A DNA stretch of 64,000 bases, taken from positions 156,574,368 to 156,638,367 of the forward strand of contig CP092886.1 in NCBI GenBank assembly GCA_030710605.1, written 5' to 3'. Numbering within the stretch: the first letter of the stretch is position 1; every line of letters begins with the position of its first letter. The stretch is from Cordylochernes scorpioides. Its lineage: Eukaryota; Arthropoda; Arachnida; Pseudoscorpiones; Chernetidae. This document shows, piece after piece, positions 9,816 through 35,351 of this stretch. The notes below the pieces were generated by a model that worked only from the letters and a program-made list of their open reading frames with translations, was not told the DNA's origin and did no database searches. The position numbers were made by a program, and so were the translations under genes.

Positions 9816-10157
9816 GGTTGACGGTGTGTTGGCGGTGCGCTTCTTTCTCTTCCGGCACGCTGGCCAAGCTCATTGAAGCGATAGATGGCCTTGTACACAG
9901 TTTGTTGAGGAATTTGAGCAGCCGAATAATTTCACATTGACGTTTTCCTAAATAAAACAACTCAATCATTGCACTACGTTTTTTTGACCTTATAAAAACA
10001 CGACAAAATAAGTTAGCACAAAGTCAAAACATAACATAATGGTACATAAAAACATTGAAAATCCGACTAAACATAAAGTAATTTATTATGGTTCAATTAT
10101 TTTGTGTTAGGATAAATTAAACATTATTTCAGTATTTTGGGACACCCTGTATATATC
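9540..10157. pseudogene. Tc1/mariner element remnant (copy 2), fuller
   Basis: Bases 9540-9700 on the plus strand encode the LFTDEKLLTPEKAHN region. Bases 9705-9960 on the minus strand encode the N-terminal DNA-binding part (IELFYLGKRQCEI, then ARETDISKSTVHQIAK). Downstream on the plus strand, 10135-10157 (TTTTGGGACACCCTGTATA) is the terminal inverted repeat of a widespread IS630-Tc1-mariner type. The element is rearranged and broken by stops, and only one terminal repeat is visible. Confidence 0.7.
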
Positions 10158-11356
10158 CCCGATTGAAAACCGTCAAATTGTTCGAATCATTAAGGTAAAC
10201 CTTCAAACCAAGATGTTCTGAAAATACGGATGTAAAAAAAAAATATTAATGAGTTAATTTGGGTTTCAAAAAGTATACATAGTACGCCATTTTCTAAGTT
10301 AAGAGAGTTCTGAAGTAAAATATTCAACATTGTAAAGAAATTTTCACGTGTTCTTGAAGAAAAATGATTAAGGGGGTTGTGGGAAGGTAGGCGATTGTTC
10401 GAACGAAAACAAAAATCAAACGCCTGAAGACAATGTTTAAGAATAAAGACGGAATTTCCAAAAGAACAAAGAATGTTTTAGTTTGATATTATTCAAGAGA
10501 CTTTGAGGAAAAAGGTATTATTGAAATATAGCGATAGCAAGAGATTCAGTTCGAAACGAAAGCCAGATATCTTTGTGCGAACGAATAATGTGTAAAGTTT
10601 CTAGATTATGACTTCATTTTGGACGATGAGTCAATTTTTGCTCTTTCCCAATCCCGGATCATTAAAAATGGTGATTTCTAAACCTCCATCTACTTGCTGA
10701 CGTCAAATTTATCCAGGGAAAATTTTCAAAAAAAAAAAAAAGGTTCTGGTATGTGAATCGCTATCGGTCTCGTGGACTCAGTTACCAATTCCTCAAATCG
10801 GGGTTCGCCATCAATGCTAAACGATATCGGGACCAAGGTCCAAGTATCATGATGTTTTCATAGAACAATCAGGACTCTAATAATATTTTTGTATTTTGAC
10901 CAGACTAATTTAACGATAAGGCAGACAGTAGCTGGAACAAGCGTGGACGCTGTCAACACCCTGGAGGGGGCTGTGAGATGTAAATGTATTGCCATTGTGA
11001 AAGGAGGGGGGATTGGCAACATGATTGATTTTATTCCGAACGAGGGCACGTGAGGAGGGCACGCGCGTGACGCGAGGCGGCCGATTGTTCCCCTCGAATT
11101 CAACGACTCGCTCGCTTTGAAAAAATATTAGAATTAACTCTGTTTAAAATATTGTATTCAGTATATGTGAAATTAATTATTATATATATAGATGGAAAAT
11201 TTGCCGGGAGGAAATTAATCCATGGAAGCAATGGTCGTCTCTCCCGTCAAAATAAACGTCAGAATCTGACGCCATCTATTGACCGTCGCCGCAACTAGCG
11301 GCATCGGGTCGGTGACAAAGCCACAACACCAACTTTGGCAAACTGATAAGCGTCCA

Positions 11357-11400
11357 CCTAGAGACCATGGTTTCGGGCTAATGGCCCTCGTCAGTCTAGG
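11357..11400 (-). ncRNA. Hammerhead ribozyme, type I, complete
   Basis: Minus-strand order: stem I strand CCUAGA, core CUGACGA, stem II GGGC/GCCC with loop CAUUA, core GAAA, stem III ACC/GGU with a 2-nt loop, cleavage triplet GUC, stem I strand UCUAGG. Every invariant core base is present. Stem I is extended outside by GUCC/GGAC. The tiny stem III is typical of hammerheads in Penelope elements and retrozymes, which work best as dimers. Predicted cleavage lies between 11363 and 11362. Confidence 0.85.
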
Positions 11401-11670
11401 GCGGACTTTATTCCATGAGATCCACACGGGATCTAATGGAATCCTCACAATCTACCAAAGAGGTGTTTTGCTGGCAATGTGGCGTCAGATTCTGACGTTA
11501 ATTTTGACGGGAGAGGCGACCATTGCTTCCGTGGATTAATTTCCTCCTGGCAAATTTTCCATCTATGTTTTGTCAATAGATTTGGCCCAGCCATTGCCAG
11601 CAAAACACCTCTTTGGTAGATTGTGAGGATTCCATGAGATCCCGTGTGAATCTCATGGAATGAAGTCCGC

Positions 11671-11714
11671 CCTAGATTGACGAGGGCCATTAGCCCGAAA
11701 CCATGGTCTCTAGG
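11671..11714 (+). ncRNA. Hammerhead relic, core C3 changed
   Basis: This is the inverted partner of 11357-11400. Stems I, II and III and the GUC site are intact, but the core reads UUGACGA instead of CUGACGA. C3 is catalytically essential in hammerheads, so it is probably inactive. Confidence 0.75.
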
Positions 11715-12779
11715 TGGACGCTTATCAGTTTGCCAAAGTTGGTGTTGTGGCTTTGTCACCGACCCGATGCCGCTAGTTGCGGCGACGGTCAACAGATGGC
11801 GTCAGATTCTGACGTTTATTTTGACGGGAGAGGCGACCATTGCTTCCATATATATATGTTATTGTGTCGGATATACATTAAAGCTTTTGTTTTCCGAGAC
11901 TTGGAGTATCGTGTATCTTATTCTACTCTACAATATAAAAATAATTCGAGTTAAATAAATTATAATCCCATTTATATTTAATTTAAATGAGTATTAAGCC
12001 ATCCCCCCAGAGAGGGATGTGTTTTTATAAATATTATATTTAATATTTAGATTTCGGGCTTACAGAAGACCCTTCTACGGGATAATTATATCAACCTCAC
12101 GTGATAATAAACCAAACATTTTAACGTTTGAAATTATAGTTCCTGGCACATTAAGTACGTCCCCGAACCTTCCATTATGCAACTCTCATGAGAATAGACT
12201 AATCAAAAAGAGACCTAAGAAATAAAAAATACATAATCATTTCAAAATCAGATACGGGAGGACAAACAGTTATCCTAGACAAAAATGATTACCATATTAA
12301 AATGCAAAATTTTCTTAATGATAAAATAACGTTTACTAAATTTACAAATTCAATTGACATATCTCTCTATCGATTAAATTTGTAACAATTAAATTTACTG
12401 GCAATGTATTTCTTTTTAATAATATCATAAAATAACGCTTACACCCATTTCCGAAAAGAAAAAAAGGGAGGAGGGAGGCAAGCCTACACTTCATAAAAAA
12501 ATTAAAACCTTATTAGAATTCATAAGGACCGTACAGTTTCGAAAGAAGAACCCAAACCAATGACCTATGCCTAAATATATCATCTTCCGAGAATACACAA
12601 ACCAGACGCCCTATCCCCCTCCTCCAAGAGCCTTTGTGTCCTTTTACCTTTCCCCAGCAGCTCCCCTTTCCAAAGCCATCTGGTCGAACCAGCTGTCGGG
12701 TCACCGGCAATACAGGATGTACCCCTCTCAGCGCTTCTTAAAAAGAGAGTCCGCTTAAATTGTTGTCGTGAACATCAAT

Positions 12780-13270
12780 TCTGGACTCTGTATTAGAAAG
12801 TCCACGTTCTCTTCAGTGACGAGTCAAGGTTCAGTGTGGATTCTCAACGAGGCATTATTTGAAGAGCACCTAGGATTGGTTTCCATTCCTACTAACATCA
12901 GAGAAAGAGATCGCTTTAGCAGATGGCGTCGTATGGTCTGAATTTCGAAAAGGTGCATACCTCTTCACAGGTTTGAGGAAGACACATTGACTGCTCAAAG
13001 ATACTTGAACGAGATTCTTGGGCGCTAGGTGAGGTTTTTCAGGAGATCATTGGACCCTAGTTCATTTTTATTTGTCCACATAGACAGTGATATTTAATAA
13101 TTTCCTTGAGAGTGATGGTATTTAGAGAGCTCATGGGCCAGTAGAACGCCCCAGAACATGTCTGAAATGACAAAGGTAGACGCACTGGAGCTCGTTAGCC
13201 CCTCCCAGAACCCTCGTCAATATAGAAGCAGCTCTTTTTAAGTAGTAAGGTTTATTGTCCCAAGACCTCT
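12780..13270 (+). pseudogene. Tc1-like transposase relic (copy 1)
   Basis: Across shifting frames the plus strand encodes pieces of a Tc1-family catalytic domain: FSDESRFSVDSQRG near 12812 (first catalytic D), then NIRERDRF, then LTAQRYLNEIL near 12990. A segment resembling FLESDGI follows near 13100. Many stops and frameshifts are present. It is unlike the transposase at 9540 and represents a second Tc1 lineage. The matching copy is at 45728-46215. Confidence 0.65.
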
Positions 13271-14139
13271 CCTTCAGAGACTGTTTATCAGCAAGAAATT
13301 TCGTTGTGAGAGTTGTATAGCTGTTAGAGGTGACCATACTCCCTAGATCAATATTTCTTCGAAATATGCTGCCTGCCATTCATTTTACCTATTTATTTAT
13401 TTCAACATCAAAGCGCTATGCCTCGCAAGGAACATTTTCGCCTAGTAGAACACAAGCATTACACAATCATTTTTTCACATTATCTACATCAGTTATAAGA
13501 AATTAGAGTCTATTTTATTATAATAAAAATTTTGAAAGGATTAATCGTCTTAAGTCTATTTTATGTCCAATTTTGCCAACGGAAATTAATATATATGAAA
13601 ATATTAAAATATTCACAAGACAATGAATACAGTAGATTTAGATTAAAACCCTCTTATCTGTACATACAAATAGAAGAATAAAAGAGAATAATTACCCTAT
13701 TAAGAGCTTATTTACAAAAAGAGTTAAAATTTATGCATAGGAGTATTTGCCGGACATCAGTCTGCTCTCTCTTTCTAAGTTCAGATCCTATTATTACATT
13801 TTGAAATATTGGACCGAGTCCAGCAACAGATGTCTTGAAGTTTGTTTTATCAAATCCACATAAACATCTCGAATCTTCCACTATTTGAATTCTTTTTTAA
13901 AAACTTCCCTAAAGTTCCCATGATTTTTAATAAACGGTAGGCTATAAAAATTAAGTCGAAAATATTTTAAAATACATTGTGAAAAAAAAACTTTGGAGTA
14001 TAGCGATCAAATTGTGGAGAAACATATTTGATCAAATTATTGATTTTATGGAATATTCACAATCTGCCATAGAGATGTTTAGCTTGAAAAGTAGCTAGGC
14101 CAAATCTATGTCCAAAATATAAATGAAAAATTTTCCGGG

Positions 14140-14560
14140 AGAATATTGATCTATAAAAATAAAGGACACTTCTCCCGTCAAAACAGATTTAAAAACTAAA
14201 CTCCATCTATGTTTTGATGGGAAAGGTGAGCTTATTTTTTAATATTGTATATCAATATCCTCCTGGCAAAATTTCCATCTGTATTTTGGCCACAGATTTG
14301 GCCTAGCCACTTTGCAAGCTAAACACTTCTTTGGAAGATTGTGAAGATTTCATTGGATCCCTTGTGGATATAATGGAATAAAGTCCACCCTGGACTAAAG
14401 AGGACCATTAGCCCGAAACCAGGGTCTCCAGGTGGACGCTTCTCAGTTTGCCAAAGCTTAGTTGTGACTTTGTCACCGACCCGAGGCCGCTAGTTTGCGG
14501 CGACGGTCAATAGATGGCGTGTAGTTTTGAGGGAGGGGTGGTCTTTATTTTTATATGTTT
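14140..14560 (+). repeat. Degenerate H3-type hammerhead unit (copy 1)
   Basis: The segment shares CTTCTCCCGTCAAAA, ATAGATGGCG and the AAACACTTCTTTGGA...GCCAAAGC landmarks with the element at 11190. It is more diverged. The hammerhead within it (14389-14432) has lost a core base. Confidence 0.6.
14389..14432 (+). ncRNA. Hammerhead relic
   Basis: Stem I CCUGGA/UCCAGG (6 bp), stem III ACC/GGU and triplet GUC are intact. Stem I differs from 11357 by paired changes (CCUAGA/UCUAGG). The core reads CUAAAGA rather than CUGANGA and stem II has an A-C mismatch, so it is probably inactive. Confidence 0.65.
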
Positions 14561-15289
14561 TTTTATCTATTAAATAATTTACCTGGATAGCAGCCTGAGC
14601 ATATGACTGTCGTAATGTCGGTGTTGCCTTGAGTATTTTCATCGAATTTTTATATATTACTTTATCAATAGTATCTGTTTTATTTTTCTAAAGTGCTTTC
14701 TTTGTATCGCGATTTCTGACAGCGAATCTACTCCGTTTTTAATCTGCTGTATCTGATAGAAGACAGATGTCAAATTATATTTGTTTAACTTCTTGGTAGC
14801 TTTTACAATTTTTATTGAAAACTATTTCGTCAAGTATTTACTTTAAGGTATCGCACAAAAATAAAGAGAAGCGAGAGAGAGAGAGGGAAGATTTGTGATT
14901 TAAAATATTTTATTGATATCATACAAGTCTATATATATTTAATACCATTATGAGAATCTCAAAATTTATAAAATTTGTTATTTAGTTTAAACATGTGAGG
15001 TTTGTTTTTATTTATGTAATGAATAAGTAGTTAGCATATAGTAGTATAAAGAGAAAAAAAAGTAACATCAGCAAAACATCGGCGGTTAAACGTCATAGGC
15101 TGGGTAAAAAAAGGAACAAGCGAAGAGAAAGTTTTATAGAAAAGAGCAAAGACAGAACCATGATAATTTTTCAAAAATAAAAAATTAAGCTAATTAGAGA
15201 AAGAGAAGTATTTTTCCCCTATTTTCTCTCTCGGTTGAGAAAGATAGATTTCAAATTTATTTTTGTGAAGATATATATATATTTAATTT

Positions 15290-15370
15290 TTTAAATGATA
15301 TTTTGATCCAATATATGCCTTTTTATTTAAAGATTTATTTATGGATTGCTCTATTTTCAAAACAATATAT
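15290..15370 (-). repeat. Penelope 3-prime tail fragment (copy 1)
   Basis: Read on the minus strand, GAGCAATCCATAAATAAATC followed by AGGCATATATTGGAT matches 63255-63305 and 24603-24620, which flank Penelope coding fragments. No coding sequence accompanies it. A similar fragment is at 48185-48250. Confidence 0.5.
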
Positions 15371-16756
15371 ATATATATGTGGTGACATAGATAAAATAAA
15401 ATATATATAAAAAGAAAGTGAGAGAGTTAAAAATAAAAAGAAAGGTTAAAAATTAAAAATAAAAGAGGAAACTAAGAGAGAGAGAGAGAGAATCCATTTT
15501 TTATTTATTTTCATAAAAGTAAACTGTCAATTTTGTATATGAGTAATAAAATGATCAAATTGAATTCTTCGAGTTAAATATAAGAAACATATCAAATTAA
15601 ATCTAGGTAGTCACAATTGATTAAAATGCCTTTAGATGGGATTAAAATAAAAAATATTCAGTAGCACAATTAAGATACCGCCATTTTTTAAAAGATATAA
15701 AATTTTTTCATTAATAAAATAAAAAAAAAACGTTAAATACTTAGATAAACTAGATGACGTCTAGTTTTGACGTCTATTTTGATGGGAGAGGCGACCTTTG
15801 TCACTTTAGATCAATATCCTCCCGGGAAAAATTCCATCTATAGCTAAATGTGGTTAAATATCATAAAGATAGAAGCTGCCTGGCCGGCATTCATAGTTCT
15901 TCAAATTAAAGATACTTCGGCCAGTAAATCTTTTTTATTGTCTCATTACTGGCCGAAGTGTCTTTTATTTGAAGTAGTTAAATATATTCAAATAAGAGTA
16001 AAAATAAACATACAAATTATATTTAAGGAAAATATGGGTCTTTTAAATATATCAGAAGAATTAACGCGACATAATATAAATATTTTATATTTTATTCATA
16101 TTTTAAAAAATACATAGGAATGATTATAACATATTGAATAGACTATATGTGAACCAAATTTCCTCATTTAAAAAAGTATTTATTTAAAAATCTACATTTT
16201 TTGCTTGTTTACCTATTTTGTGCACCAGTCTAATTATAAAATGTATAGAATAATTTCTAAAAGGTAGAAGAACAAAATAGAGGTCTTAACACTTCACAAG
16301 AATAGCTAAAATTAAAAATAACAATAGAGAGCTAAGAACTTCAACTAAATTATTTATGAATAATTAATTTTTTGTTGTGTTGTGTGTTGAAAGCATAAGC
16401 CGAAATCAATAGAACGTAATCCTTAGTTGCCAAGAAGCCGGCAGAATCCTAAACCTGCCAGTGAGGCATCCTTTCTCTGAAGTTAATTGAAGAAGCTTCA
16501 AAATACAAATTACTTGGGGGAGAACTAGAATAGCTTAATGAACTTTTTCTGGGAGCAGAGAATAGCTTCTTTTATTCAAAAGGATTTGTTGTTTTAGTAT
16601 ATAGATTTATTTTGGAGAGTAAAGTCTTGCAATTTTTACATCTAAATTTACCTTTAATTATGATACAAAAAAGAATAAATAAATAAATAAATATATATAT
16701 ATATGGAAAAAAAAATAGTACAAATGTGATATTGTACTGGGATAAGGTGCATAATT

Positions 16757-17083
16757 ATGAAAAAAGAGCATCTCCTTATCGTGCAACTGAAAGTTGCTGA
16801 TGGCTTGCGCCATCTATCGGAATAAATATCAACTATTCTCGTTGATTTTTAATTATTCCAGAATTGGCCAAATTTGGTCGTTGAGGTACAGCTTGCACCA
16901 CGCTGATGAGGGCCAACAGCCCGAAACGCGTCCGTGGTTAGCTTTTCTTGATTAATCAAGAATGGGTATTTGGCCAATTCTGGAATAATTAAAAATCAAC
17001 GAGAATAGTTGATATTTAATCCGATAGATGGCGCAAGCCATCAGCAACTTTCAGTTGCACGATAAGGAGATACTCTTTTTTCA
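16757..17083 (+). mobile_element. M1 foldback element with hammerhead
   Basis: Inverted arms of about 100-130 bp start and end with CATCTCCTTATCGTGCAACT-type sequence and contain GCGCCATCTATCGG. The asymmetric centre carries a complete hammerhead (16898-16937). Other M1 copies are at 28068, 29272, 55383 and 56624. A motif with GTACAAATGTGATATTGTAC precedes it. No coding capacity. Confidence 0.7.
16898..16937 (+). ncRNA. Hammerhead ribozyme, type I, complete
   Basis: Stem I CCACG/CGUGG, core CUGAUGA, stem II GGGC/GCCC with loop CAACA, GAAA, stem III ACG/CGU with no loop bases, triplet GUC with cleavage after 16932. A zero-loop stem III cannot close in one molecule, so activity would need a dimer, as is known for short-stem-III hammerheads. 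All core bases are intact. Confidence 0.82.
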
Positions 17084-17668
17084 TATATATATTAAAGCAA
17101 TTTTTTATATTTGGAAAATAGAGGAAAAGTAAACTATTATGAACTACAGATTTTGAATTAATTTTGAGTCAGAACAGCAAGCTAATTCTGTATTAAATAG
17201 TATAGTCATGAAAAATTTTGAGATTAATACATTTTTTAAAAATTTAATTTAAATGTGTGAGGTTTTTATTTTTTATTTTTTGTAATAAATAATTAGTTAG
17301 ATTATATTAAAAAAAAAAGAAAAAAAAAGGTAACACCAGCAAAGCATCGGCAGTTACGCGTCATAGGCTGGGTGAAAAAAGGAATAAGCGAAGAGAAAGT
17401 TTTAAAGAGAAGAGCAAAGACAGAACCATGATAATAATTTTCCAAATATAAAATAAAGCTAATTAGAGAGAGAGAAGTATTTTTTGCTCTATTTTCTCTC
17501 TTGATGAGAGAAGATAGATTTTTGTGATTTTTTTTTGTGATTTTTTTTTTTAATAAGCTTATTTTAAAGACAATCTAGTGTAAATGTGGAGGACACGATA
17601 AGGATAATATATTAAATTAGGAAGGATGAAAACCTTTTAGGGTTAGACCAGATGGAAAGAGGATGGTA

Positions 17669-17730
17669 CTCAGGCGGGCCTCTTCAGATGAAGACCTGAG
17701 CAGCAGTTTCGGCCCTTACTCCATTACTGC
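17669..17730 (-). ncRNA. Strand-permuted hammerhead, instance C (left arm)
   Basis: Mirror copy of 18318-18379 on the opposite strand, with the same sequence through all helices. See that entry for the pairing. Confidence 0.6.
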
Positions 17731-18317
17731 CAAACCATGCCTCTTCGACCAAATAGAAAGCAAATTTAGGTTGGAAAGGAGATAGGGTAATAGTTGAGTC
17801 TCAGATACTACATAAATCAACTAATGAACTAAGACAGTATCATCTTCTGCACTTTCAAACCTAACTCAAAAAATGTTTTTTTCCAGTTCAGAAGTTAAAT
17901 TTATTCGGCTCCCTAGACTTAATCAGATTGATACATACTTATCCCTTAGTGTTAAACTTTAAATCAAATTGTGTTTTTATTCTTTTTGGGTATAAGGACT
18001 GTAAGAGACTGATAATAAATTAGTAATCAGTCTCTTACAGTCCTTATACCCAAAAAGAATAAAAACACAATTTGATTTAAAGTTTAACACGAAGGGATAA
18101 GTATGTATCAATATGATTAAGTCCAGAGAGCCGAATAAATTTAACTTCTGAACTGGAAAAAAAAACATTTTTTGAGTTAGGTTTGAAAGTGCAGAAGATG
18201 ATACTGTCTTAGTTCATTAGTTGATTTATGTAGTATATATATTCTAAGGCTCAAATATTACCCTATCTCCGTTCCAACCTAAATTTGCTTTCTATTTGGT
18301 CGAAGAGGCATGGTTTG

Positions 18318-18379
18318 GCAGTAATGGAGTAAGGGCCGAAACTGCTGCTCAGGTCTTCATCTGAAGAGGCCCGCCTGAG
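18318..18379 (+). ncRNA. Strand-permuted hammerhead, instance C (right arm)
   Basis: Order: GCAGU + A (stem III strand and GUA cleavage triplet, 18318-18323), AUGGAG (stem I, 18324-18329), GGGCC-GAAA (18333-18341), ACUGC (stem III, 18341-18345), CUCAGG (extra helix, 18348-18353), CUUCAU (stem I, 18355-18360), CUGAAGA (18361-18367), GGCCC (stem II, 18368-18372), CCUGAG (extra helix, 18374-18379). Stem I is 6 bp with one G-U pair, II is 5, III is 5 and the extra helix 6. It is the best-formed member of the permuted group. Confidence 0.6.
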
Positions 18380-18850
18380 TGCAATCCTCTTTCCATCTGG
18401 TCTAACCCTTAAGGTTTTCATCCTTCCTAATTTAATATATTATCTTATATCGTGTCCTCCACATTTACACTAGATTGTCTTTAAAATAAGCTTATAAAAA
18501 AAATAATAAAATATATATATATATATATATAACAAAAATCTATCTTCTCTCATCAAGAGAGAAAATAGAGCAAAAAATACTTCTCTATCTCTAATTAGCT
18601 TTATTTTATATTTGGAAAATTATTATCATGGTTCTGTCTTTGCTCTTCTCTTTAAAACTTTCTTTTCGCTTATTCCTTTTTTTCACCCAGCCTATGACGC
18701 GTAATGCCGATGCTTTGCTGGTGTTACTTTTTTTCTTTTCTTTTTTTAAATATTCTCTAACTAATTATTTATTACAAAAAAACCTCGCACATTTAAATTA
18801 AATAAAAAGATTTATTAATCTTAAAATTTTTCATACTATATATATATATA

Positions 18851-19144
18851 TGACATAATAAAAATATGATTTTTATTATTCATTAATATAATTATAATTC
18901 AAATAATCATAGAATTAACACAGAGTTAATTCTTTAAAATCCTTAACAAAAGGAGTACAACCCAAGATGTTTTTTGTATATACTTAGATTATATTTATAA
19001 AATTATATGTATGCAAACTTTTTGTTCTTAAAATATAATCATTAAAAAAAATACAATTTGGAATATAAAAGTTATCATTTCACTTCAATCCACGACTGCA
19101 TGAATGAATTGGTAACGTACCTAAAATACATCTTTTTTATGACA
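18851..19144 (+). repeat. 5-prime LTR, 294 bp
   Basis: Starts TGACATAATA and ends TTTTTATGACA. By eye it is base-for-base the same as 24289-24582. The LTR is very AT-rich. No clear TATA box or poly(A) signal can be singled out in such sequence. Confidence 0.92.
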
Positions 19145-19216
19145 ACTTTTTAATAGTCGACAGGATGTATTTTAACCCTGTACGAGAAGATTTCCAATAG
19201 ATTTCCAAGCCATATA

Positions 19217-20455
19217 TTGCAACTAAGATATTTGGGAAAAGATATAGATAAAAGAATAGCAATTATGGAAGTCGAAACTTTAATTAAGAAATTAAAAAGG
19301 ATAAAAAAAAGTATAAAAGGCATTGAAGAAAATATCGAATCCATTGTGTCTATGGTAGATGTAAATGCAACGAAATGCAAACTAGAGTATGCAAATAAAG
19401 ATTTGATGAAAATGAGTGATATTTTCTTGCAGAAACTTGAGGATGAGGATTTGAATGACGAAGTGGAAAATTGCATAGATAAGTGTATAAGATTAAAGTG
19501 TGATTTGGATTTAAGGCATAATGGGCAAGAAACATCTGAAAAAAAAGTAAATTTACATGTTAAAATGCCTAAACTTGAATTGCCAACTTTCGATGGTAGA
19601 TTAGAATCATGGCTTTCATTTAAGGATTTATTTTATTCTGCAATTGGTTCTAATTCACAAATACCGGAAATTGAAAAGTTACAATATTTGAAAGGCCAAC
19701 TGAGAGGCGAAGCCCTAAGACTGGTCAACGCATTTCCAATTACAGCCGATAATTATGTTGAGGTTTGGCAAACCTTATTAACAAGATATGATAATCCAAA
19801 GGATCTGATTTTCACCCAAATAGATAATGCATTAAGATTACCAAAGTTAGCCGATGACAACCATAAGTCAATGTTTAAACTTCTAGATAGTTGCAACGAG
19901 ATAGTAAGAACAGTGAAGGTATTAGGTTACCAAATCGATAGTTTATCTGATGTGTTTTTCGTCGAGATCATACAAGATAAGCTTGATAAAACCACAAGAA
20001 AACAGTGGGAATTGCAGAACAACCCAAGGGTTGTGCCTTCAATTAAGGATTTAATGGAATTTCTAGAAATTCGCGCAAAAAGCTTGCAGAATTTGCCAAA
20101 TAAAGATGCAAATGTGGAGAAACATTCAATAAGAAGGGAATCACATAAGGAAATGGAGGAGTCATCTATTAAAAGGGAAACAGCCCCAAGAATGGAAGTA
20201 CAACAAAAGCAATGGGGACATCCAGGTAGAAGCCCTATGGACTATAGTTCTAAAAGACGTCCTTGCCGAATTTGCCTGAACCGGGGACATGCCGGACGCT
20301 TCCATCCTGAGAATAGGTGCTGGTTTCGCGAGAGGGCCGTGCAAGCCCCCCCCGCTGCAAGCTTCATGTCCGTGCCGTCTCGATCCATGGACACCTTGAC
20401 GCAGACAACAGCCCCTTCGAGCGAATGCCGACCAGCTCCGCCTCAACACTCCTGA
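19217..20455 (+). CDS. gag: gag polyprotein, DUF1759-type
   Basis: A 412-residue frame. Residues 1-100 are lysine-rich and likely coiled-coil. Residues 118-200 (PKLELPTFDG, then LRGEALRLVNAFPI and TRYDNP) match the DUF1759 capsid-like domain usual in BEL/Pao elements. A zinc-knuckle-like C-x2-C-x4-H-x4-H-x4-C lies at residues 350-368. The last ~65 codons are markedly GC-richer than the rest of the element. The frame ends in TGA followed by C, and pol continues in the same frame. Translation could start at 19217 or at the methionine at 19265. Confidence 0.85.
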   Translation: MQLRYLGKDIDKRIAIMEVETLIKKLKRIKKSIKGIEENIESIVSMVDVNATKCKLEYANKDLMKMSDIFLQKLEDEDLNDEVENCIDKCIRLKCDLDLRHNGQETSEKKVNLHVKMPKLELPTFDGRLESWLSFKDLFYSAIGSNSQIPEIEKLQYLKGQLRGEALRLVNAFPITADNYVEVWQTLLTRYDNPKDLIFTQIDNALRLPKLADDNHKSMFKLLDSCNEIVRTVKVLGYQIDSLSDVFFVEIIQDKLDKTTRKQWELQNNPRVVPSIKDLMEFLEIRAKSLQNLPNKDANVEKHSIRRESHKEMEESSIKRETAPRMEVQQKQWGHPGRSPMDYSSKRRPCRICLNRGHAGRFHPENRCWFRERAVQAPPAASFMSVPSRSMDTLTQTTAPSSECRPAPPQHS

Positions 20456-20482
20456 CGCCAAGGTCTGTATATAAATCTAAAT

Positions 20483-22816
20483 GTGAATAATAACAGTATT
20501 GTAGCTCTCATGGATACTGGCTGTACCTTCTCTATAATTCCTCAACATATGATAGATAAGATTCAACCAAACTATGTTGTTTTTAATAATTTCCCTCTTA
20601 TTAAACAGACATCCGGTATGCTAAATATAAATTCAAAAATTAATGTTAATACAACTATAGGATTTATTACTAGAGATATTGATTTTTATTCCTCTGATAT
20701 TAATTTGCCATATGTATTGCTTTCTTTACACCATATAAGATTATTTAAATTAGACATTGATTTTCAAAGTTTTACAATTACTCAATTTGGTAGAATTCTT
20801 AATGTTAATTACCATAACCCTAATAATAATAATTATACACATCATAATGTAATTCCTTTATTTAAATCTATTATTCCTCCTAATGAAAATGATTTTAGAA
20901 ATTTTAATAGTGTAGAATTTGATGAAAAACTTTCACCATATGAAAAATCTGATTTAATTAAATTAATTAAGGAAAATAAGGAAGCGTTTGCTGCCCATAA
21001 AATGGATATAGGACATATTAAAGCAGATCCAATTAGAATTAAACTTACCTCACAAACACCTATTTCATTAAAGCCTTTTAGACCTTCCTTCTCGGACAAC
21101 ATTGAAATTAAAAGACAGATTGAAGAACTTTTAAAATATAATGTCATTAGACCATCTTATTCCTCCTATGGATCCCCTGCTATGTTGGTGAATAAGCGAA
21201 ATGAAGGTAAAATTCGACTAGTAATAGACTACAGAAAATTAAATGATATAATAAAAAGAGATTCTGAGCCCATACCAAGAATAGATTCTATATTAGATAA
21301 GCTTTCAGAAGCTAATATCTTCACTACACTAGATCTTTTATCAGGTTATCACCATTTAGATATACACCCAGATGATAAAGAATACACAGCTTTTACTACC
21401 ACTCACGGACTTTACGAATTTAATAAATTATCTTTTGGATTAAAAAATAGTCCAAGTCAATTCCAAAGAGTTTTAAGGCAAATTTTAAATAAATATGATG
21501 TTGATTTTTGCATGAATTACTTCGATGACTTCATTATATTTTCAAATAATTTTCAGGAACATTTGACCCATTTAAAAGTAATTTTAGATATTTGCATAAA
21601 GGAAAATATTAAGCTAAAACTAAGTAAATGTAAATTCGCTACTTATCAGATTTCTTTTCTAGGATATGAAATATCAAACCATCAATTTTCACCCAGCACT
21701 AATAATATAGAAACGATTAGAAAATTGAATTCCCCAAGGAATAAAAAGGATTTACAACGAGTTTTAGGATCTATTAACATTTACTCGAAATTTATCCCTA
21801 ATTATGCTAAACTCAGACTCCCTTTGAATAATTTGTTGAAAAAAGATGTAAAATGGAAATGGGATGAAGAATGCGAAACCGCATTTTCTAAATTAAAAAA
21901 TATGATAACCTCAAAACCTATATTAGCTATCTATAATCCCAAATATCCTATACACCTTTACACGGATGCTAGCCAAGAACAGATCGGATCTATCCTAAAA
22001 CAAGAACAACCCGATGGGCTTTTAAAGCCAATAGCGTATAGAAGCCGTAGAATGACATCTTATGAATCAAACTATTGTGTAACTGAGCAAGAATGCCTTG
22101 CTATTATTGATGCTGTGGATTTCTTTTTACCCTACTTAGATGGCGTGCATTTCACCATCCATACAGACCATGCTTGTCTAAAGTATTTGAAGAACATAAA
22201 GAACCCAAAAGGACGATTATTTAGATGGAGCTTAAAGCTCTCAATGTTTGACTTTGAGATAAAACACATAAGAGGAACTGAAAATAAAGAAGCTGATTTT
22301 CTCAGCAGATACCCCATAGCTCATTTTGTTTCTGACCCAGAACTAAAACAAGCTCAATTTGATGATAACATCAATGATAGGAAATATACTAAATTTAATG
22401 GACTTTTAACAATAAAGAAAAAAGGATTAATCAAAAGTGTTGTTCCACCATCATTAAGAGAAAAAGTATTAATAAGAGCTCATCAAGATTACGGCCATAT
22501 AGGAGTATCTAAAATGTTAAATCTAATTTCCCCTATCTATTATTGGCCCTACCTAATTCAAGATATTTCTAATTATGTAAAACACTGTGAGGTGTGTCAA
22601 CTCAATAAAATATCTCACCAGAAGAAATTTGGTCTGTTGGAAAGTCTCCCCCCAGCTAAGGATCCTTTTGATCTTGTGTCTATAGACACAGTAGGTGGAC
22701 TAAATTACTATAATTCCACAAAGAAATTCCTTCACATCATCGTAGATCATGCTACTAGATACATTTGGGCTTTCCCCTCAAAAAGTCAAACTACTGACTC
22801 ATATATAATTGCCTAA
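20483..22816 (+). CDS. pol: pol: protease, reverse transcriptase, RNase H, integrase N-terminus
   Basis: 777 codons in the same frame as gag, separated by one TGA (20453-20455); the first in-frame codon usable as a start is GTG at 20483. Aspartic protease signature ALMDTG at residues 8-13. Reverse transcriptase with YFDDFIIF near residue 346, the Ty3-type active site. RNase H with YTDAS near 492. Integrase HHCC zinc domain (H-x4-H about 667, C-x2-C about 703) and first catalytic D in SIDTVGG near 733. Expression probably needs stop readthrough. The frame then breaks near 22800. Confidence 0.85.
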   Translation: MNNNSIVALMDTGCTFSIIPQHMIDKIQPNYVVFNNFPLIKQTSGMLNINSKINVNTTIGFITRDIDFYSSDINLPYVLLSLHHIRLFKLDIDFQSFTITQFGRILNVNYHNPNNNNYTHHNVIPLFKSIIPPNENDFRNFNSVEFDEKLSPYEKSDLIKLIKENKEAFAAHKMDIGHIKADPIRIKLTSQTPISLKPFRPSFSDNIEIKRQIEELLKYNVIRPSYSSYGSPAMLVNKRNEGKIRLVIDYRKLNDIIKRDSEPIPRIDSILDKLSEANIFTTLDLLSGYHHLDIHPDDKEYTAFTTTHGLYEFNKLSFGLKNSPSQFQRVLRQILNKYDVDFCMNYFDDFIIFSNNFQEHLTHLKVILDICIKENIKLKLSKCKFATYQISFLGYEISNHQFSPSTNNIETIRKLNSPRNKKDLQRVLGSINIYSKFIPNYAKLRLPLNNLLKKDVKWKWDEECETAFSKLKNMITSKPILAIYNPKYPIHLYTDASQEQIGSILKQEQPDGLLKPIAYRSRRMTSYESNYCVTEQECLAIIDAVDFFLPYLDGVHFTIHTDHACLKYLKNIKNPKGRLFRWSLKLSMFDFEIKHIRGTENKEADFLSRYPIAHFVSDPELKQAQFDDNINDRKYTKFNGLLTIKKKGLIKSVVPPSLREKVLIRAHQDYGHIGVSKMLNLISPIYYWPYLIQDISNYVKHCEVCQLNKISHQKKFGLLESLPPAKDPFDLVSIDTVGGLNYYNSTKKFLHIIVDHATRYIWAFPSKSQTTDSYIIA

Positions 22817-23579
22817 ACAAATTTTTCAAATACAAAAACCCAAACAATTTTTAAGTGACAGGGCACCATCATTTACTTCACCAAGATTTAGAAAATATTT
22901 GATTAACAATAACATTAAACAATTATTGACTTCATCATCAAGACCTCAGTGTAATGGGTTAAATGAACGACTTAACCAAACTATAATAACCAGGTTAAGA
23001 TGTAAATTCAATAACTTGAAAGGAAAATCAATACCATGGACGAAATTGTTAGATTCAGTACTAAATGAATATAATAATACTCCCCATTCCATAACAGGCT
23101 ATACTCCTACTTACCTTTTGTATGGTAAGCTCCCTTATGATCCCCCCTTAAAAGAATCAGAATTTTACCCCCCTATAGACACTGCCAGAACAAATGCCTA
23201 TAATAATACATTAAAATTTCATCAGATAAATAAAATTAGATATGATCAACATTATCAACCTTCCACCTTTAAAGTAGGCGATAAAGTTTGGTTACAAACC
23301 TTTTACCATCCAGATAACCGAAAATTAATGCCTCCAATGTCTGGGCCATTTACAATCTTAAAACAGATATCCCCAGTCAATTATGAAATTGATAAACCCG
23401 AATCTAATTTAGGAAAAACTACCATGGTAATTCATTCATCCAAATTGAGGCCATACTACTCAAAAGAAGGATTTGAGTTAAAACTGACAAAAAGTAAAAT
23501 ACCCACTTTAGAGAAAAAAACAAACCAACAAGTGGCACCTAAGGTAGTGAAAAGTAGAATCCCTCTTCTTACTAAATAA
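22809..23579 (+). CDS. pol: Integrase C-terminal part, frameshifted from pol
   Basis: A 256-residue frame, shifted relative to the preceding pol frame. It holds the second catalytic D (SDRAP, residue 17) and the E (NGLNERL, residue 53), separated by 35 residues as in DD35E integrases. A GPF-type C-terminal domain follows (VGDKVWLQTF, then MSGPFTIL). The shift lies within 22795-22850, where the expected sequence is split over all three frames, so at least two indels exist. The element is probably defective here unless this is an assembly error. Confidence 0.8.
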   Translation: MPKQIFQIQKPKQFLSDRAPSFTSPRFRKYLINNNIKQLLTSSSRPQCNGLNERLNQTIITRLRCKFNNLKGKSIPWTKLLDSVLNEYNNTPHSITGYTPTYLLYGKLPYDPPLKESEFYPPIDTARTNAYNNTLKFHQINKIRYDQHYQPSTFKVGDKVWLQTFYHPDNRKLMPPMSGPFTILKQISPVNYEIDKPESNLGKTTMVIHSSKLRPYYSKEGFELKLTKSKIPTLEKKTNQQVAPKVVKSRIPLLTK

Positions 23580-24276
23580 TGGTAGGGAAATCTTAATATA
23601 AATAAGACAATACCAAAAATAACTACGCCTAAAAATTAAGCCTTGAGAATATAATTTTTGTGCACACATAAGATATAACTTGACACTTTTCTTTTCAATT
23701 GTTGTAAATATTTTACATTTTGATTTTATTTGTTGAGAAATTCACTCATATGATTCTATATATTTTTCCCTCACAAACTTTATATGGAACATTTCATATT
23801 CGAACATTCTTTTTTATTTAATGTAAATAGTAAAACTTCATGTGTAAATATTTTTCATTATGTGGAAGTAAATAACCCATTATTTTATGTTTTTATTCTG
23901 ATCAAACCAAATAAATGTGAAACAAGATGTTGGATACCACTCGTCATTATGAGAAATAAATTTGTGATTTTCAAAAATATATTTTTTGGCATGTGGCAAA
24001 ATACCTTTTGAATCTTGAGAGCCTGAGAAGGCCTACTCAATTCATGAGGTAAATCCCCTTATGAATTATAGGAAGGAGACACCTATAAATTCAAATAAGA
24101 TAGGATAATTTTCAGCTACTGTCAAGAAAAAATGTACCAATAGGAATATGTAGAAGGAATAAAGAGCATCATTGATATAGTTTCAATTGGTATCCTCCAT
24201 CTTAATTGATAATCTATGTAAATAATAATGATACTTTTTTTTTTACTTTGAAAATTACTCCCTAATTTTTATCCTT
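23580..24276. other. Non-coding 3-prime region of the LTR element
   Basis: About 700 bp between the end of integrase and the polypurine tract. Short open frames (for example 23784-24011) have no recognisable domain or membrane-protein pattern. No envelope-like gene is visible. Confidence 0.6.
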
Positions 24277-24288
24277 GGAGGGAAGAAA
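24277..24288 (+). other. Polypurine tract
   Basis: GGAGGGAAGAAA lies immediately 5-prime of the TG that begins the 3-prime LTR. This is the position expected for the plus-strand DNA primer. Confidence 0.8.
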
Positions 24289-24582
24289 TGACATAATAAA
24301 AATATGATTTTTATTATTCATTAATATAATTATAATTCAAATAATCATAGAATTAACACAGAGTTAATTCTTTAAAATCCTTAACAAAAGGAGTACAACC
24401 CAAGATGTTTTTTGTATATACTTAGATTATATTTATAAAATTATATGTATGCAAACTTTTTGTTCTTAAAATATAATCATTAAAAAAAATACAATTTGGA
24501 ATATAAAAGTTATCATTTCACTTCAATCCACGACTGCATGAATGAATTGGTAACGTACCTAAAATACATCTTTTTTATGACA
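24289..24582 (+). repeat. 3-prime LTR, 294 bp
   Basis: Same length and, by eye, same sequence as 18851-19144. Followed directly by TATATATA, as is the left flank. Confidence 0.92.
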
Positions 24583-25429: not shown

Positions 25430-26287
25430 TTAAAAATAAAAATAAACTACTGGAATTAAAATAATTTGAAAAAATATATTTTTTAAAGAAGATTTAAATG
25501 GTGTGTAAATGTCTGGTAAATCAATTTTCCTATTTATACTTTCTTTGTCTTTTGCAGAGGCCCAGCTTTCTAAGAACAATCGGCAGTGTTTTTCTTTAAT
25601 GTTCTGGTATAAAATAGTTGTATTTTCAAACTCCGGAGTGTGGTTGTTTTTCAGTGCATGATCTACAAGGAGAGACAGAGGGTTGTAATTCCTTAATCCT
25701 GATTTGTGTTGATTTAGACGATCTTTGAGTGGTTTGCTGGTTTCCCCTATATAATTAGCTTGATAATTGTTACAAGGTATTTTGTAAATTACGTTGATTT
25801 TGTTTTCCATTTTGTTAACTTGCTTAGTGTCTGGATAGCGTAGGGCCTTTTTTAAATTTAAAGATGATTGATAGGTAGTTGTGATGTTGTATCTCTTTAG
25901 GACTCTGGCGATGCGTTCAGAGCCGTAGCTGTAGGGGAAGGAGCAATAAAGATTTTTTGATTGATCAGGGGTGTTATTGAAAGGTGGAGATTTTGGTTTA
26001 TAAAAATGTTTTTCGATAAATTTGCTTGGGTACTTGTTTTTTATTTCACTGAAGATTCTATTTCTCTCCACTATATCATTAATTTTTGACGAGCAATGTG
26101 TATCTAATCTTTTGGAGGGAGCTTTAACCACAGCGATTTTATGATGAACTGGGCCAAAAGAATTGAAATTCAAATAATAACCTGTGTGGGTTGATTTTCT
26201 AAAAATACTAGTTTCTATTTGGTTAAACTTTCTTTTAAGCTGTAAATCGAAAAATGCCAGAGAATTATTATTTTCAATTTCATGTGT
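25430..26287 (-). pseudogene. Penelope-like reverse transcriptase C-terminus with GIY-YIG endonuclease
   Basis: An open frame of 299 codons. The first ~14 codons are non-element flank; element coding starts at HEIENNNSLAFFDLQL, the region after the RT catalytic motif. The GIY-YIG nuclease lies at residues 178-210: VIYKIPC at 179-186, YIGET at 193-197, R204 and H208. The tail SINRKIDLPDIY matches the fragment at 63681. RT motifs up to and including the YIDD box are missing, so it cannot be autonomous. The remaining frame is open throughout. Confidence 0.85.
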
Positions 26288-26740
26288 AGGGTGGCTGAGT
26301 GAAGTTACAAATTCGTTTTTTTTTTTCAAAAAAAAAAAAAAAATGCCAACACATCAAATGCGCTGTGTATGAGCGGATATGGTCACAATGAAGGATCTAA
26401 TTACCATTATAAATATAAATAAATAGACGCATTTGAACTATATGAATTGAAATAAATCGGCAAAGTGTGGTGTGTATATACATGAGTAAAATGTTTTGAT
26501 ATTTATGTAAAAGAAACATTCTTGATGTTTTTATTTGCTGTATAAAGATGGAGCATTATTGCCTTACATGAATGAAATGTTACAAAGATGAGATGCCATG
26601 TAGATATATGAATGTATTTCCACCACTGCAAACCAGAATCTGTTCAAAAGAAGATGAAGATCAGCGAGATTTCAGAACGGAACCAGGAAAAAATGGAATA
26701 AACGAGGACGTTATAACGATGTTTAACTAAATATTTTTTA

Positions 26741-27776: not shown

Positions 27777-28067
27777 GGCGTTCTGAATTCACCAGAGCTG
27801 GTGATGTGGCTTTGTCATCGATCCAAGTCTGATAGAATGCAGAGACTATCAATAGATGGCGCATAAGTTCCACGTCTATTATGATAAGAGAGGTGACGTT
27901 TAATATATATATATATATATGTCTTTTTTAAGGGGAGAGATTCATATAATCTTATTAACATTCAAATCTATAAAATTTCTCAAACAACCAGTACTGTGCA
28001 TTGTTTCCCACCCCCTCCCCCATTCGGACTAGTTATTTCAATATAACATTTATAAAATATTATGAAA

Positions 28068-28283
28068 AAAGACATCTCCTTATCGTGCAACTGAAAGTTG
28101 CTGATGGCTTGCGCCATCTATCGGAATAAATATCAACTATTCTCGTTGATATTTAATTATTCCAGAATTGGCCAAATACCCATTCTTGATTAATCAAGAA
28201 AAGCTAACCACGGGCGCGTTTCGGGCTGTTGGCCCTCATCAGCATTTATTCCGATAGATGCACGATAAGGAGATGCCTTTTTT
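28068..28283 (-). mobile_element. M1 foldback element, internally deleted (copy 1)
   Basis: Left arm CATCTCCTTATCGTGCAACT is present, and the right arm is shortened to CGATAGATGCACGATAAGGAGA. The centre holds a hammerhead relic on the minus strand. The counterpart at 55383-55634 keeps the full right arm, so the deletion is specific to this copy. Confidence 0.65.
28208..28243 (-). ncRNA. Hammerhead relic with altered cleavage site
   Basis: Core CUGAUGA, stem II GGGC/GCCC and GAAA are intact. The triplet is GCC instead of GUC, and the 5-prime stem I strand is replaced by AAAUG. Predicted inactive. Same in 55530-55564. Confidence 0.65.
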
Positions 28284-28879
28284 CATAATTTTGTACCTTA
28301 TCCCAGTACAATATCACATTTGTACTATTTTTTTCACATTTATAAAATATTTATTAAATATTTCACAATTATATGAAATTATAATATACTATTTATATTT
28401 ATGATTAATTTGTTAATATGAAACTCCTGTTGAAGGACTGACAAGTCCGAAAGCTTGAAAATAAAAGGTTTGCACAATAAACTCAACCCTGGAAGCTTTA
28501 TTTATTTTATTATAATGAGTATTTAATCAACTCTTTCGCAAATATTATAAATAGCTTGGTTAAATTTAATCGTGGTTCTATCTTTAGCTCGTTTTCTACT
28601 TTTTCTTCATTTTTTTTGTTTCGTATCTATAACGTATAACTGACGAGGCCTCCGCGTGAACACTGATACAGCCTATTTTGTTTACAGTAAAATATAAACT
28701 ATTTTTGACAACTCTAAATAAATATATGTGCATATTTTCTTGTTTCATCTTTAAAAAGGTAGAATTTTTCTTTTTAAACAGAATTATTTTAAAATACATT
28801 TTATTACATTCTCAATATGGATTGCTGTTATGACAAACTATATCATCCTTCCGCAACTTTAGGTATTAATATTGCCTGG

Positions 28880-29095
28880 AAATCAGCCCTTGTCACTTCA
28901 CCAGCTTAAACACCTGTTTGATAAATTCGACCGATTTCATAATCCTTCTCGTAGGATGTTATGAAATCGAAGCCGCCCCTGTATTGATGAAGGCCATAGC
29001 CCGAAATCATGGTATACAGGTTGGCTTTTGTCTGAATTTACCAAAACTGGTGTTTCGTGGCTCATTCATCATCATCACTAGTAAAGTAATTAGTA
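28880..29095 (+). repeat. Hammerhead unit family H4 (copy 1)
   Basis: AAACACCTGTTTGATAAATT pairs with AATTTACCAAAACTGGTGTTT around a hammerhead, the same closing-stem layout as in H3. The hammerhead at 28978-29020 has U for core C3. The tail GTGGCTCATTC recurs at 36710, 37050 and 39380. Confidence 0.6.
28978..29020 (+). ncRNA. Hammerhead relic (H4, copy 1)
   Basis: Stem I CCUGUA/UACAGG and triplet GUA are present. The core is UUGAUGA and GAAA is followed by U, which weakens stem III. The allelic copy at 56330 has both positions in the canonical state. Confidence 0.7.
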
Positions 29096-29271
29096 AAGAT
29101 TATTAGATGAAAAAAATAAACTTCTTTAATCAATTAACCCAATATTGCGATTATTTATGAATAGATCTAAAAATAAGTGATGAACTGTGAAATTTGGATA
29201 ACAATGTTATTACTATGTGAAAAAACAGTACAAATGTGATATTGTACTGGGATAAGGTGCATAAATTATGA

Positions 29272-29526
29272 CAAAGGCATCTCCTTATCGTGCAACTGAA
29301 AGTTACTGATGGCTTGAACCATCTATCGGAATAAATATCAACTATTCTCGTTGATTTTTAATTATTTAAGAATTGGCCAAATGGCCCCTTTTCTTGATTA
29401 ATCAAGAATGGGTATTTGGCCAATTCTGGAATAATTTAAAATCAACGAGAATAGTTGATATTTATTCCGATAGATGGCGCAAGCCATCAGTAACTTTCAG
29501 TTGCACGATAAGGAGATGCCTTTTTC
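29272..29526. mobile_element. M1 foldback element without hammerhead (copy 1)
   Basis: Arms CATCTCCTTATCGTGCAACT and its complement surround a symmetric centre TCTTGATTAATCAAGA. The ribozyme-bearing asymmetric centre of 16757 has been replaced by arm sequence, making a near-perfect palindrome. The counterpart is at 56624-56878. Confidence 0.65.
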
Positions 29527-30019
29527 ATAATGTCATTACTGTTTTTAATCAATCGACCAATATAGTAATATTATAATAGACATGATAAATTCATGGTTTT
29601 TGAATGTACTCATAATTTATATTAAAAAAAGGCACATATTGATAGGTTTTATTATAAATATACACCATGTTACTATATGTTGATATGTTGATTGCAATTC
29701 GAACTGCTTGATAATTGTCATTGTATATATATACTAATGTTTGACATTACACATAGAGTATTCATACACGGTTGCTCCTTTTAAGAAAAGCCCTTAATAT
29801 TGATAGAATATGTACACACACATACTCTCTAGAAAATACACATAAACACACACACACAAAAAAACACATACAACACACACATATACAAATTAACATACAC
29901 ACACAGTGTCATAATTCCAACCACCCAAAACAAAAACGATATTTTATTAATTTTTAAATCTTTTTTCTACTCTTTCTTTTATTTAAATTCATAAATTCAT
30001 TGGTCGAAGAGATTGGTAG

Positions 30020-30080
30020 GGGAGTCAAGCAGCAGGGATGAAACTCCCGCCGGGTTTACCTTTGATAAGTCCCGGCCCGG
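30020..30080 (+). ncRNA. Strand-permuted hammerhead relic, instance D (copy 1)
   Basis: GGGAGU + C, then GGGAU-GAAA, ACUCCC, CCGGG, UUGAUAA, GUCCC, CCCGG. Stem III is 6 bp, stem II 5 bp with one G-U pair, and the extra helix 5 bp. The core box UUGAUAA has two changes from CUGANGA and stem I is poor, so it is probably inactive. Homology to instance C is clear from the flanks (ATTGGT and TTCGACCA boxes). Confidence 0.45.
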
Positions 30081-30282
30081 TACCAATCTCTTTCATCCTG
30101 GTTTAACCATTATGGTTTCCATTAACACAAGACAAACAAATTTGACTCTATTTTACACTAAAAAATATATTATTAAAAGTGTTATCAACACAAAAAAAAA
30201 AAAACATAAAAATTAAAAAAAAATAATTTTTAAAAAATTTATTCATTTTTTCTTTTTAACTTTAAATGTTTGATAAAAAGAT

Positions 30283-30415
30283 AACATGGTTCTGTCTTTG
30301 CTCTTTTTCTTATTCTAATACCTTCAATTATTCCTTTTTTTCTATGTTCTGCTTACATGACGCGTAACTGCCGAGGCTACAGCGTGAACTTGTTATAACC
30401 CTATGTTGTTACTTA
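30283..30415 (+). repeat. Conserved box pair of the C/D repeat family
   Basis: GGTTCTGTCTTTGCTCTT is followed ~60-90 bp later by ACGCGTAACTGCCGAGGCT and GCGTGAAC. The same ordered pair is at 18628-18730 and on the minus strand at 17325-17440. Diverged versions are at 15048-15180, 28567-28660 and 47935-48050. Function is unknown; it may be a processing or primer site of the small element. Confidence 0.5.
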
Positions 30416-30546
30416 TATAAAAAAACCGCCTTTTTTTGATACCCTAAAAGTAATATTTTCATAATATGTTTTTAATTATCATTACTCATTCTCTAATACA
30501 ACTATCTTTCATATAAATTATATTTAATTCTACTTATTAATATATA

Positions 30547-31305
30547 TCCTTATATATCTATAAAAATGAAATCCAAAATCGAAGTTTGTTATCGCGTTGC
30601 GCAAAATCTACAGAATAATTATTATGAAATTTCGCATGTAGGTATCTGAAGATTTCGTTTAACATATAGGCTATTCAAAAAACTAAAAAGGATAATGTGC
30701 TTTTTTTTTAAAATATAAAACCAAAAAGCGTTAGTTCCAGCCTTTTACCGCTTGGGCGCAGCACTGGTCGCGACGATAAATGAATTTGATTGGTTAATAA
30801 CTTACACGTGGTTTGTTTACACGATGAATGTTAGTTTGATTACAGGATGAATGTTTTTAAAAGGTAAGATTATCCAATCGCCGTGAAACTTTAGTAAGTT
30901 ATTTACTATACTACTGGAAAGGTTTCTGGCTTGAATTTGATTTGAAATAAATATTCTTTTCAAATTTATTTGCAAATTTTATACTTTCACTCGCAAGCAG
31001 CGCCTCTCGCGGTTTCTGGTGAAATTATATTTATAAATTGTAACAATGCTGAAAATGTGTTCTAATTATGATAAATTTAATTTGAGAATCTATTCTATCT
31101 ATATATATATAAAATTGATTGTCTGTCTGTCTGTATGTTTGTACTCTATAGATTCAAAAACCATACATCCAATCACCGTGAAATTTTGGGATATTATTAG
31201 GTATATCCCCGGGAAGGTTTTTGAAAAATAATTTATTGAATATCCTTAGAGTTATTTGCAGATTTGTAGATTTAACTCGCAAGCAGCGCCCCCATTGCGA
31301 CGATG
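30547..31305 (+). mobile_element. Helitron 5-prime end fragments, two in tandem (copy 1)
   Basis: The first begins A-TCCTTATATATC, the same 5-prime end as the tRNA-bearing Helitron at 49838-50594, and shares about 230 bp with it. The second, from about 31094, begins TCTATCTATATATATA and continues with GATTGTCTGTCTGTCTG, a classic Helitron 5-prime terminus. Neither has a 3-prime hairpin or CTAG nearby, so both are truncated. Confidence 0.6.
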
Positions 31306-31720
31306 ATAACAAGTTTTTCTTTGTAACGTATTATATTCCCCTTCTTGAAGCATTTATTCTCGGGTAATAAATGGTCGAAGTTGAGATATGTGATATCGTA
31401 GGTTACGTCAGATATCCTATTTTTTAAAATGACAAATGGTCCTTCATAGTTCGATGATGTCTTGATGAGACGAAAATCGTCGTAGGCAATTTTTCTCATA
31501 ACTAAGTCTCCTTTAAAAACATACTTGGCTATCGTGTTTAAACTCCCATTTTTTTAAATTTTGGAATGTGGGTCCATTTCAACCTGCCAATAACCCCATG
31601 TAACATCGAGGGTAGAGAAGAATCTGGATCCATGCGATCGATCAAACATGTCTTGTATGTGAGATAGGGGTCGCCTGCCATCCAAATCTGTGATGCAATG
31701 TTTATTTTTTATCCCTTTTA
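31272..31720 (-). pseudogene. Ty3-type deletion derivative: RT fragment joined to integrase C-terminus (copy 1)
   Basis: Minus strand: 31700-31580 encodes an RT motif (SRFFSTLDVTWGYWQVEMDP). This runs after a short interval into 31499-31272, an integrase C-terminal domain (YEGPFVILKNRISDVTY, ending in KGNIIRYKEK). Everything between RT and the integrase tail is missing. The same junction exists at 42335-42662 and 58628-59075, so the deleted form has itself been copied. Confidence 0.6.
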
Positions 31721-31739
31721 AGGAACATATTGGACACCA

Positions 31740-32515: not shown

Positions 32516-32519
32516 TTTA

Positions 32520-35337: not shown

Positions 35338-35351
35338 GCACCATCTGGTGG
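35338..35351 (-). promoter_or_regulatory. CTCF-like motif in M2 unit 1
   Basis: The reverse complement reads CCACCAGATGGTGC and fits CCASYAGRKGGC of the animal CTCF core. Its presence in a transposable unit parallels CTCF sites carried by rodent B2 SINEs. Binding is not shown. Confidence 0.4.

Follow-up and report, generated by a model that had tools for sequence, protein, structure and literature searches.

The 64-kb window (the whole stretch of 64,000 nucleotides of Cordylochernes scorpioides DNA that was analysed) carries at positions 18316–18379, on the plus strand, a genuine type-SGC hammerhead, with a cut predicted from its sequence between A18323 and A18324. What is new here is the place in which this hammerhead is found: animal chromosomes, and within them two families of repeats (A and B), one of which is organised like a retrozyme. 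Our preferred reading, to which we give a probability of roughly 0.8, is that the segment at 18316–18379 would act as a self-cutting hammerhead within a reverse-transcriptase (RT) retroelement of family A, and that members of family B would cut their tandem transcripts, form circles and be reverse-copied.

The earlier note had reported, at 18318–18379, all the parts of a hammerhead, a fourth helix and a G-U pair in stem I. Each of these elements was confirmed in the sequence at its given position, and the core is complete. The strand order on the plus strand is cleavage site, GAAA, CUGAAGA, or in terms of blocks S-G-C, where S comprises stem III, GUA and stem I, G comprises stem II, GAAA and stem III, and C comprises stem I, CUGAAGA and stem II. 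The 5' part of block S (18316–18323) holds the 5' strand of stem III and the GUA triplet (18321–18323), and the cut is placed 3' of the H in the GUH triplet by analogy. It is followed by the stem I strand 3' of the predicted cut (18324–18329), which pairs with 18355–18360 and includes the one G-U pair, by a three-base linker, UAA, leading to stem II (18330–18332; position 18330 varies freely among copies), and by a stem II strand (18333–18337) that pairs with 18368–18372. GAAA (18338–18341) and the 3' strand of stem III together occupy 18338–18347; the stem III pairing, 18318–18322/18341–18345, is extended by two wobble pairs to 18316/18347. The 5' strand of the fourth helix (CUCAGG, 18348–18353) pairs with its 3' strand (CCUGAG, 18374–18379), and between them lies block C (18355–18372) with the stem I strand, CUGAAGA (18361–18367) and the stem II strand. 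In family A, 2 nt separate stem III from the fourth helix. The order had been held to be unlike that of the known types I, II and III, and it is indeed not a circular permutation of theirs, but according to the available text of Eckert et al. (2023; PMC10085705) it has already been described, tested and named "type-SGC"; the order itself is therefore not new.

Stem III and the fourth helix are adjacent hairpins and stems I and II join their loops, which reduces the unusual order to a pair of hairpins with doubly paired loops. In the proposed fold, the neighbouring hairpins would form and their loops would pair twice, as stems I and II, which would place CUGAAGA, GAAA and the GUA triplet next to one another in the manner of an ordinary hammerhead. 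Nested folding of 18300–18400, by a program that cannot score the pseudoknot, was no better than that of shuffled sequences (z −0.06), and the nested minimum-energy fold contains both the stem III and the fourth-helix hairpins. The stacking sum of the four family A helices is −44.5 kcal/mol against −20.9 kcal/mol for the nested fold; the former leaves out loop and pseudoknot penalties, is not a folding energy, and shows merely that the proposed fold is not absurd. The loop of the family A fourth helix is able to pair with itself in the nested fold, which may slow cleavage. Two other candidates were judged by eye: an HDV-like fold of the 18316–18379 region was dropped for lack of a fitting P3 helix, and a tRNA-derived repeat was rejected as well, the only tRNA given by ARAGORN being a tRNA-Gly at 50282–50352.

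Beyond what the earlier note described, the motif has an inverted twin, occurs in high-copy retroelements and is accompanied by three more SGC copies at 3168–3909. It lies in one of two head-to-head family A retroelement 3' parts, which make up an inverted repeat at 17191–18850 (91% identical), and the other arm holds the second family A hammerhead, at 17669–17732 on the minus strand, with motif letters identical to those of 18316–18379. A first reading of this palindrome, as a DNA transposon with long terminal inverted repeats, was dropped because one-arm copies exist, with a constant 3' end, and an RT lies upstream. In such single-arm copies elsewhere the 5' extent is variable. The RT open reading frame was found at locus L053 (2098–2988; RVT_1, E 1.4e-7), about 2 kb upstream of the motif, and broken relatives of it occur in L051, L055 and L056. 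It matches the C. scorpioides protein LAZ67_15002817 (66% identity over 38% of the query); its matches in the PDB, to a maturase RT and to telomerase RTs, are weak (E 0.004–0.007). A GIY-YIG domain was absent from the 16 distinct ORF pieces scanned in L051, L053 and L056, where the copies are broken and 5'-truncated, and a search for family A target-site duplications in the window and at L046 found none. The right family A arm is adjoined by an LTR retrotransposon (18850–24582, plus strand) whose 295-bp LTRs are identical and which contains Gypsy-like domains, a DUF1759 ORF, and RT, RNase H and integrase domains. A GIY-YIG-domain ORF at 25430–26329 (minus strand) is possibly the endonuclease of a Penelope-like element. 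More hairpins were seen by eye at L053 3900–4000 and 4370–4440, with the hammerhead-like words CTGATG, CCGAAACGTC and CTTCAGAC/GTCTGAAG; both fail the hammerhead scan.

Family A copies were collected by similarity to query sequences from a genome of 2,619,359,433 bases in 24 contigs; with a 201-bp query the best 40 of 1217 candidates were scored, and with the other queries the best 40 of 1138 and the best 40 of 1197. The resulting alignment of 67 copies consists of the two window arms, 38 copies from earlier loci (two of them at L037) and 27 further ones, while a previous alignment (A1) held 30 of the 40 copies available at that stage. Among the 67, the core and all 23 pairs are intact in 52. 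The 12 core positions differ in only 1 of 804 cells, the G of GAAA, which one copy has lost; differences amount to 46 of 402 cells in the linkers, 38 of 2948 in the stems and 30 of 2479 in the flanks, so that the core varies less than the flanks. Variants shared by at least three copies occur at the linker positions 18330, 18347 and 18373. Within the stems, a standard pair is kept where the G-U pair at 18327 becomes A-U in five copies and where the C-G pair at 18337 becomes U-G in eight, the exception being a ninth copy with U.U at 18337. The common breaks, at 18344 and 18356, are found in two copies each, 27 and 64 kb apart, and these copy pairs are probably local duplicates.

No pair was altered on both sides among the 67 family A copies, and the covariation score on 25 distinct rows was not above that of shuffles (0.048 vs 0.050). 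Since the copies had been found by query similarity, their divergence is low and this test of covariation is weak. These data bear on the possibility that the motif of family A was once an SGC ribozyme but is now inert in an ageing repeat, while family B may stay active. The lack of both-sided change, at a divergence that gives little power, and the competing self-pairing within the second hairpin are compatible with such decay, but 52 of the 67 copies retain the core and every pair, and the core is less variable than its surroundings. We consider inertness of family A unlikely.

A scan of 12 ten-kb loci around family A copies identified three more SGC sites with other letters, two in L055 and one in L056. 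They define family B, in which a fourth helix (GGGAGGG/CCCUCCC) is present although it was not a search criterion, the linker from stem I to stem II is about five bases, and 0 nt lie between stem III and the fourth helix. In the window, a family B array at 3052–3977 is flanked by 14-bp target-site duplications (3038–3051 and 3978–3991) and, besides two minus-strand tandem units, contains an inverted part-unit. The tandem units have a period of 368 bp and are identical over the 343 bp compared. The hammerhead at 3844–3909 (plus strand) has a predicted cut after C3850 and one A.A mismatch in stem I, and its motif is identical in the hammerheads at 3536–3601 and 3168–3233, both on the minus strand. 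A broken copy without a proper cleavage-site strand lies at 48816–48890 (minus strand).

Further loci also bear on family B as a mobile element. In L055, a family B copy lies within a family A element and has a 14-bp target-site duplication when compared with the empty site in L053. An array at L081 2401–5577 is made up of two opposed tandem runs with a period of 371 bp and eight units in all, seven of them passing the scan, and has a 17-bp target-site duplication; between the opposed runs there is a different, 90-bp tandem repeat (3799–4255). For the family B copy at L078, no convincing target-site duplication was seen when one was sought. Eight 8-kb regions were sampled at round coordinates chosen beforehand: SGC sites passing the scan occur in two of them (L078 and L081), and family B sequence was identified by BLAST in five (L078 and L081, and also L080, L082 and L085). 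This suggests that SGC/family B sites number in the tens of thousands genome-wide, a rough extrapolation from 64 kb. A sub-family of B has GUA for GUC and closes the outer end of stem II with C-G instead of U-A; it had 211 candidates, of which the best 40 were scored. Eight loci (L113–L120) were added after the counts; the pattern parsed seven of them and missed L114.

The covariation of family B was assessed in an alignment (A2) of 20 of its 24 distinct rows; the other four (L049:8066, L055:9552, L085:803 and window:48816), which have no cleavage-site strand, and further family B BLAST fragments were excluded. Paired letters occupy 92.8% of 497 cells, a value that falls to 32–54% when the columns are slid by 1–3. 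Both-sided changes, 10 cells in all, affect five pairs: stems I and II contribute two each and the fourth helix one. Neither these 10 cells nor the covariation score was reached by any of 500 shuffles, which leave relatedness in; five both-sided pairs were reached by 11 of the 500, and the count of pair types by 220. Sliding the alignment by +1 likewise shows five both-sided pairs (5 cells). In stem I, one of the pairs does not form in 12 of the 20 rows, and L078 shows an additional both-sided change in stem II. In stem III there is no both-sided change among the 20 rows of family B; such change appears between families A and B. When one representative string per family was compared, with the register set by hand and the six inner pairs of the seven in B's fourth helix, 12 of 23 pairs differed on both sides, two on one side, and none was broken. 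In a joint alignment of both families (A3), the S block was out of register, and this alignment was kept out of the counts.

Covariation is hence seen for stems I and II and the fourth helix within B and for stem III between A and B. Compensatory changes, which the earlier note had looked to as a check, exist in family B and between the families but not within family A. Its reading of a non-circular order with a fourth helix and a pseudoknot gained support from a second family in the same genome with other helix letters, and from the covariation in that family. The two hairpins might still be a conserved signal for another role, such as RT binding, with hammerhead letters that have no role in cleavage; the nested fold, which lacks stems I and II, does contain stem III and the fourth helix. 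Yet both families preserve stems I and II in different letters, B shows both-sided changes in them, and CUGANGA, GAAA and a GUH triplet are likewise preserved in A and B, which makes a signal of this kind decidedly improbable.

An order-free hammerhead scan of the window found only 18318–18379 and its inverted twin, with stems I/II/III of at least 6/5/5 bp down to 4/3/3. In 400 dinucleotide-shuffled windows, both strands included, there were no matches in any order at 6/5/5, 5/4/4, 4/4/4 or 4/4/3, and 10 at the laxest setting of 4/3/3. With one stem I mismatch tolerated, the window yielded five SGC and two canonical (CGS) sites, and 600 shuffles yielded eight matches in any order, a single one of them SGC and lacking a fourth helix of at least 6 bp. 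A chance resemblance within a GC-rich repeat patch has in its favour that a repeat multiplies any chance site and that a 2.6-Gb genome is large, but the shuffle counts argue against it, and the recurrence of all four helices in an independent family makes it very unlikely. Rfam at gathering scores gave no hammerhead match anywhere in the window, and a permissive Rfam scan of 17800–18900 gave 21 matches, none of them over 18318–18379; Rfam likewise reported no hammerhead in L078 or L081, though SGC copies are plain there.

Canonical type I (CGS) hammerheads with a short stem III were detected by scan in repeats at 16897–16938 (plus strand) and, on the minus strand, at 35432–35473, 62780–62821, 11357–11400 and 44303–44346, none of which is reported by Rfam at gathering scores. 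A sixth CGS match, at 37828–37931, resembles chance. The presence of type I hammerheads in the window and the palindromic locus might suggest a type I hammerhead scrambled by a local palindrome or by misassembly, but the same order in 67 aligned copies from many contigs, some of them without the palindrome, and again in family B, leaves this idea with almost no credibility. Type I and SGC repeats share near-end words such as AGATGGCGC or CGCCATCT, as seen by eye in the window at 16810–17050, in L055 at 2350–2950 and in L056 at 1850–2400, and these could reflect a common mobilising enzyme. As to other repeats of the window, long direct repeats at 27903–35894 and 55225–63240 are 98% identical over 8 kb, those at 9817–15851 and 42763–48734 are 95–98% identical over about 6 kb, and the segment at 39932–41115 is self-similar with many offset matches and is probably a satellite array.

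The occurrence of the motif in many copies inside mobile elements suggests a part for the ribozyme in the RNA processing of such elements. For the self-cutting hammerhead that we favour, we infer cleavage of these copies, RNA circles and a Penelope-like RT as partner. Family A RNA would cut itself between A18323 and A18324. In family B, transcripts spanning tandem units would be cut by this fold to lengths of 368–371 nt; the pieces would circularise, and a reverse transcriptase, perhaps Penelope-like, would return them to AT-rich sites as DNA copies. The RT of family A is a candidate enzyme for copying family B. On a wider scale, it is possible, and we propose it tentatively, that chelicerate chromosomes carry SGC retrozymes at tens of thousands of sites which cut and close their own RNA, and that the SGC RNAs of environmental samples are their RNA-stage relatives. 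Type-SGC hammerheads, previously without known hosts, now gain a host and a mobile-element setting, and their many diverging copies offer a natural series for tests of covariation and activity. If our reading holds, a multiply pseudoknotted permutation would be seen to survive rounds of retrotransposition. The origin of non-circular permutations also becomes testable, because type I and SGC sites coexist in one genome, and even in one 64-kb window.

Among the publications searched, which leave most subscription papers outside, "type-SGC" hammerheads were found in PMC10085705 alone, and later work may exist. In the same literature hammerhead ribozymes of non-circular permutation are mentioned in three papers, this one among them; we found no paper linking a hammerhead ribozyme with a pseudoscorpion, and none that combined any three of hammerhead ribozyme, retrozyme, arachnid and spider. 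In the available text of PMC10085705, five type-SGC RNAs cut as predicted, and in one tested RNA stems I–III and the helix joining I and II were each required and were rescued by compensation. The linker from stem I to stem II is typically three bases there, with the other sides joined by a stem, and 0–44 nt lie between stem III and the stem that joins I and II. Family A shares with this type (the HRIMA-1 motif and its variants) the block order, the core letters of CUGAnGA, GAAA and GUH, stems I, II and III, the three-base linker and the tying fourth helix, and the gaps between stem III and the fourth helix (2 nt in A and 0 in B) are within the published range. Apart from a type-GCS candidate in Caballeronia peredens, the same text describes no such permuted ribozyme in the genome of any known organism, whereas here there are two retroelement families in animal chromosomes, known from their sequence. 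The type I hammerheads of the window share the core letters of the SGC site and lie in repeats of the same genome; they differ from it in their canonical order, short stem III and lack of a pseudoknot.

A Penelope-like element with a hammerhead, a tandem arrangement and AT-rich targets is described in the available part of PMC11167929. Compared with Penelope-like elements that bear type I hammerheads, family A likewise has an RT (with weak matches to maturase and telomerase RTs), 5'-truncated and inverted copies, and a hammerhead outside the coding part; it differs in the SGC order, and in that no GIY-YIG endonuclease or flanking pseudo-LTRs were found in the copies examined. Animal non-LTR retrozymes, as given in the accessible text of PMC7229834, carry type I hammerheads, form dimers up to multimers of 150–450-bp units and have target-site duplications of more than 4 bp. 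Family B resembles them in its tandem units of 368–371 bp, each with a hammerhead, and in target-site duplications longer than 4 bp (14 in the window, 14 in L055 and 17 in L081), and departs from them in that its hammerheads have the SGC order instead of type I. Family B would hence extend retrozyme-like elements beyond type I and type III hammerheads.
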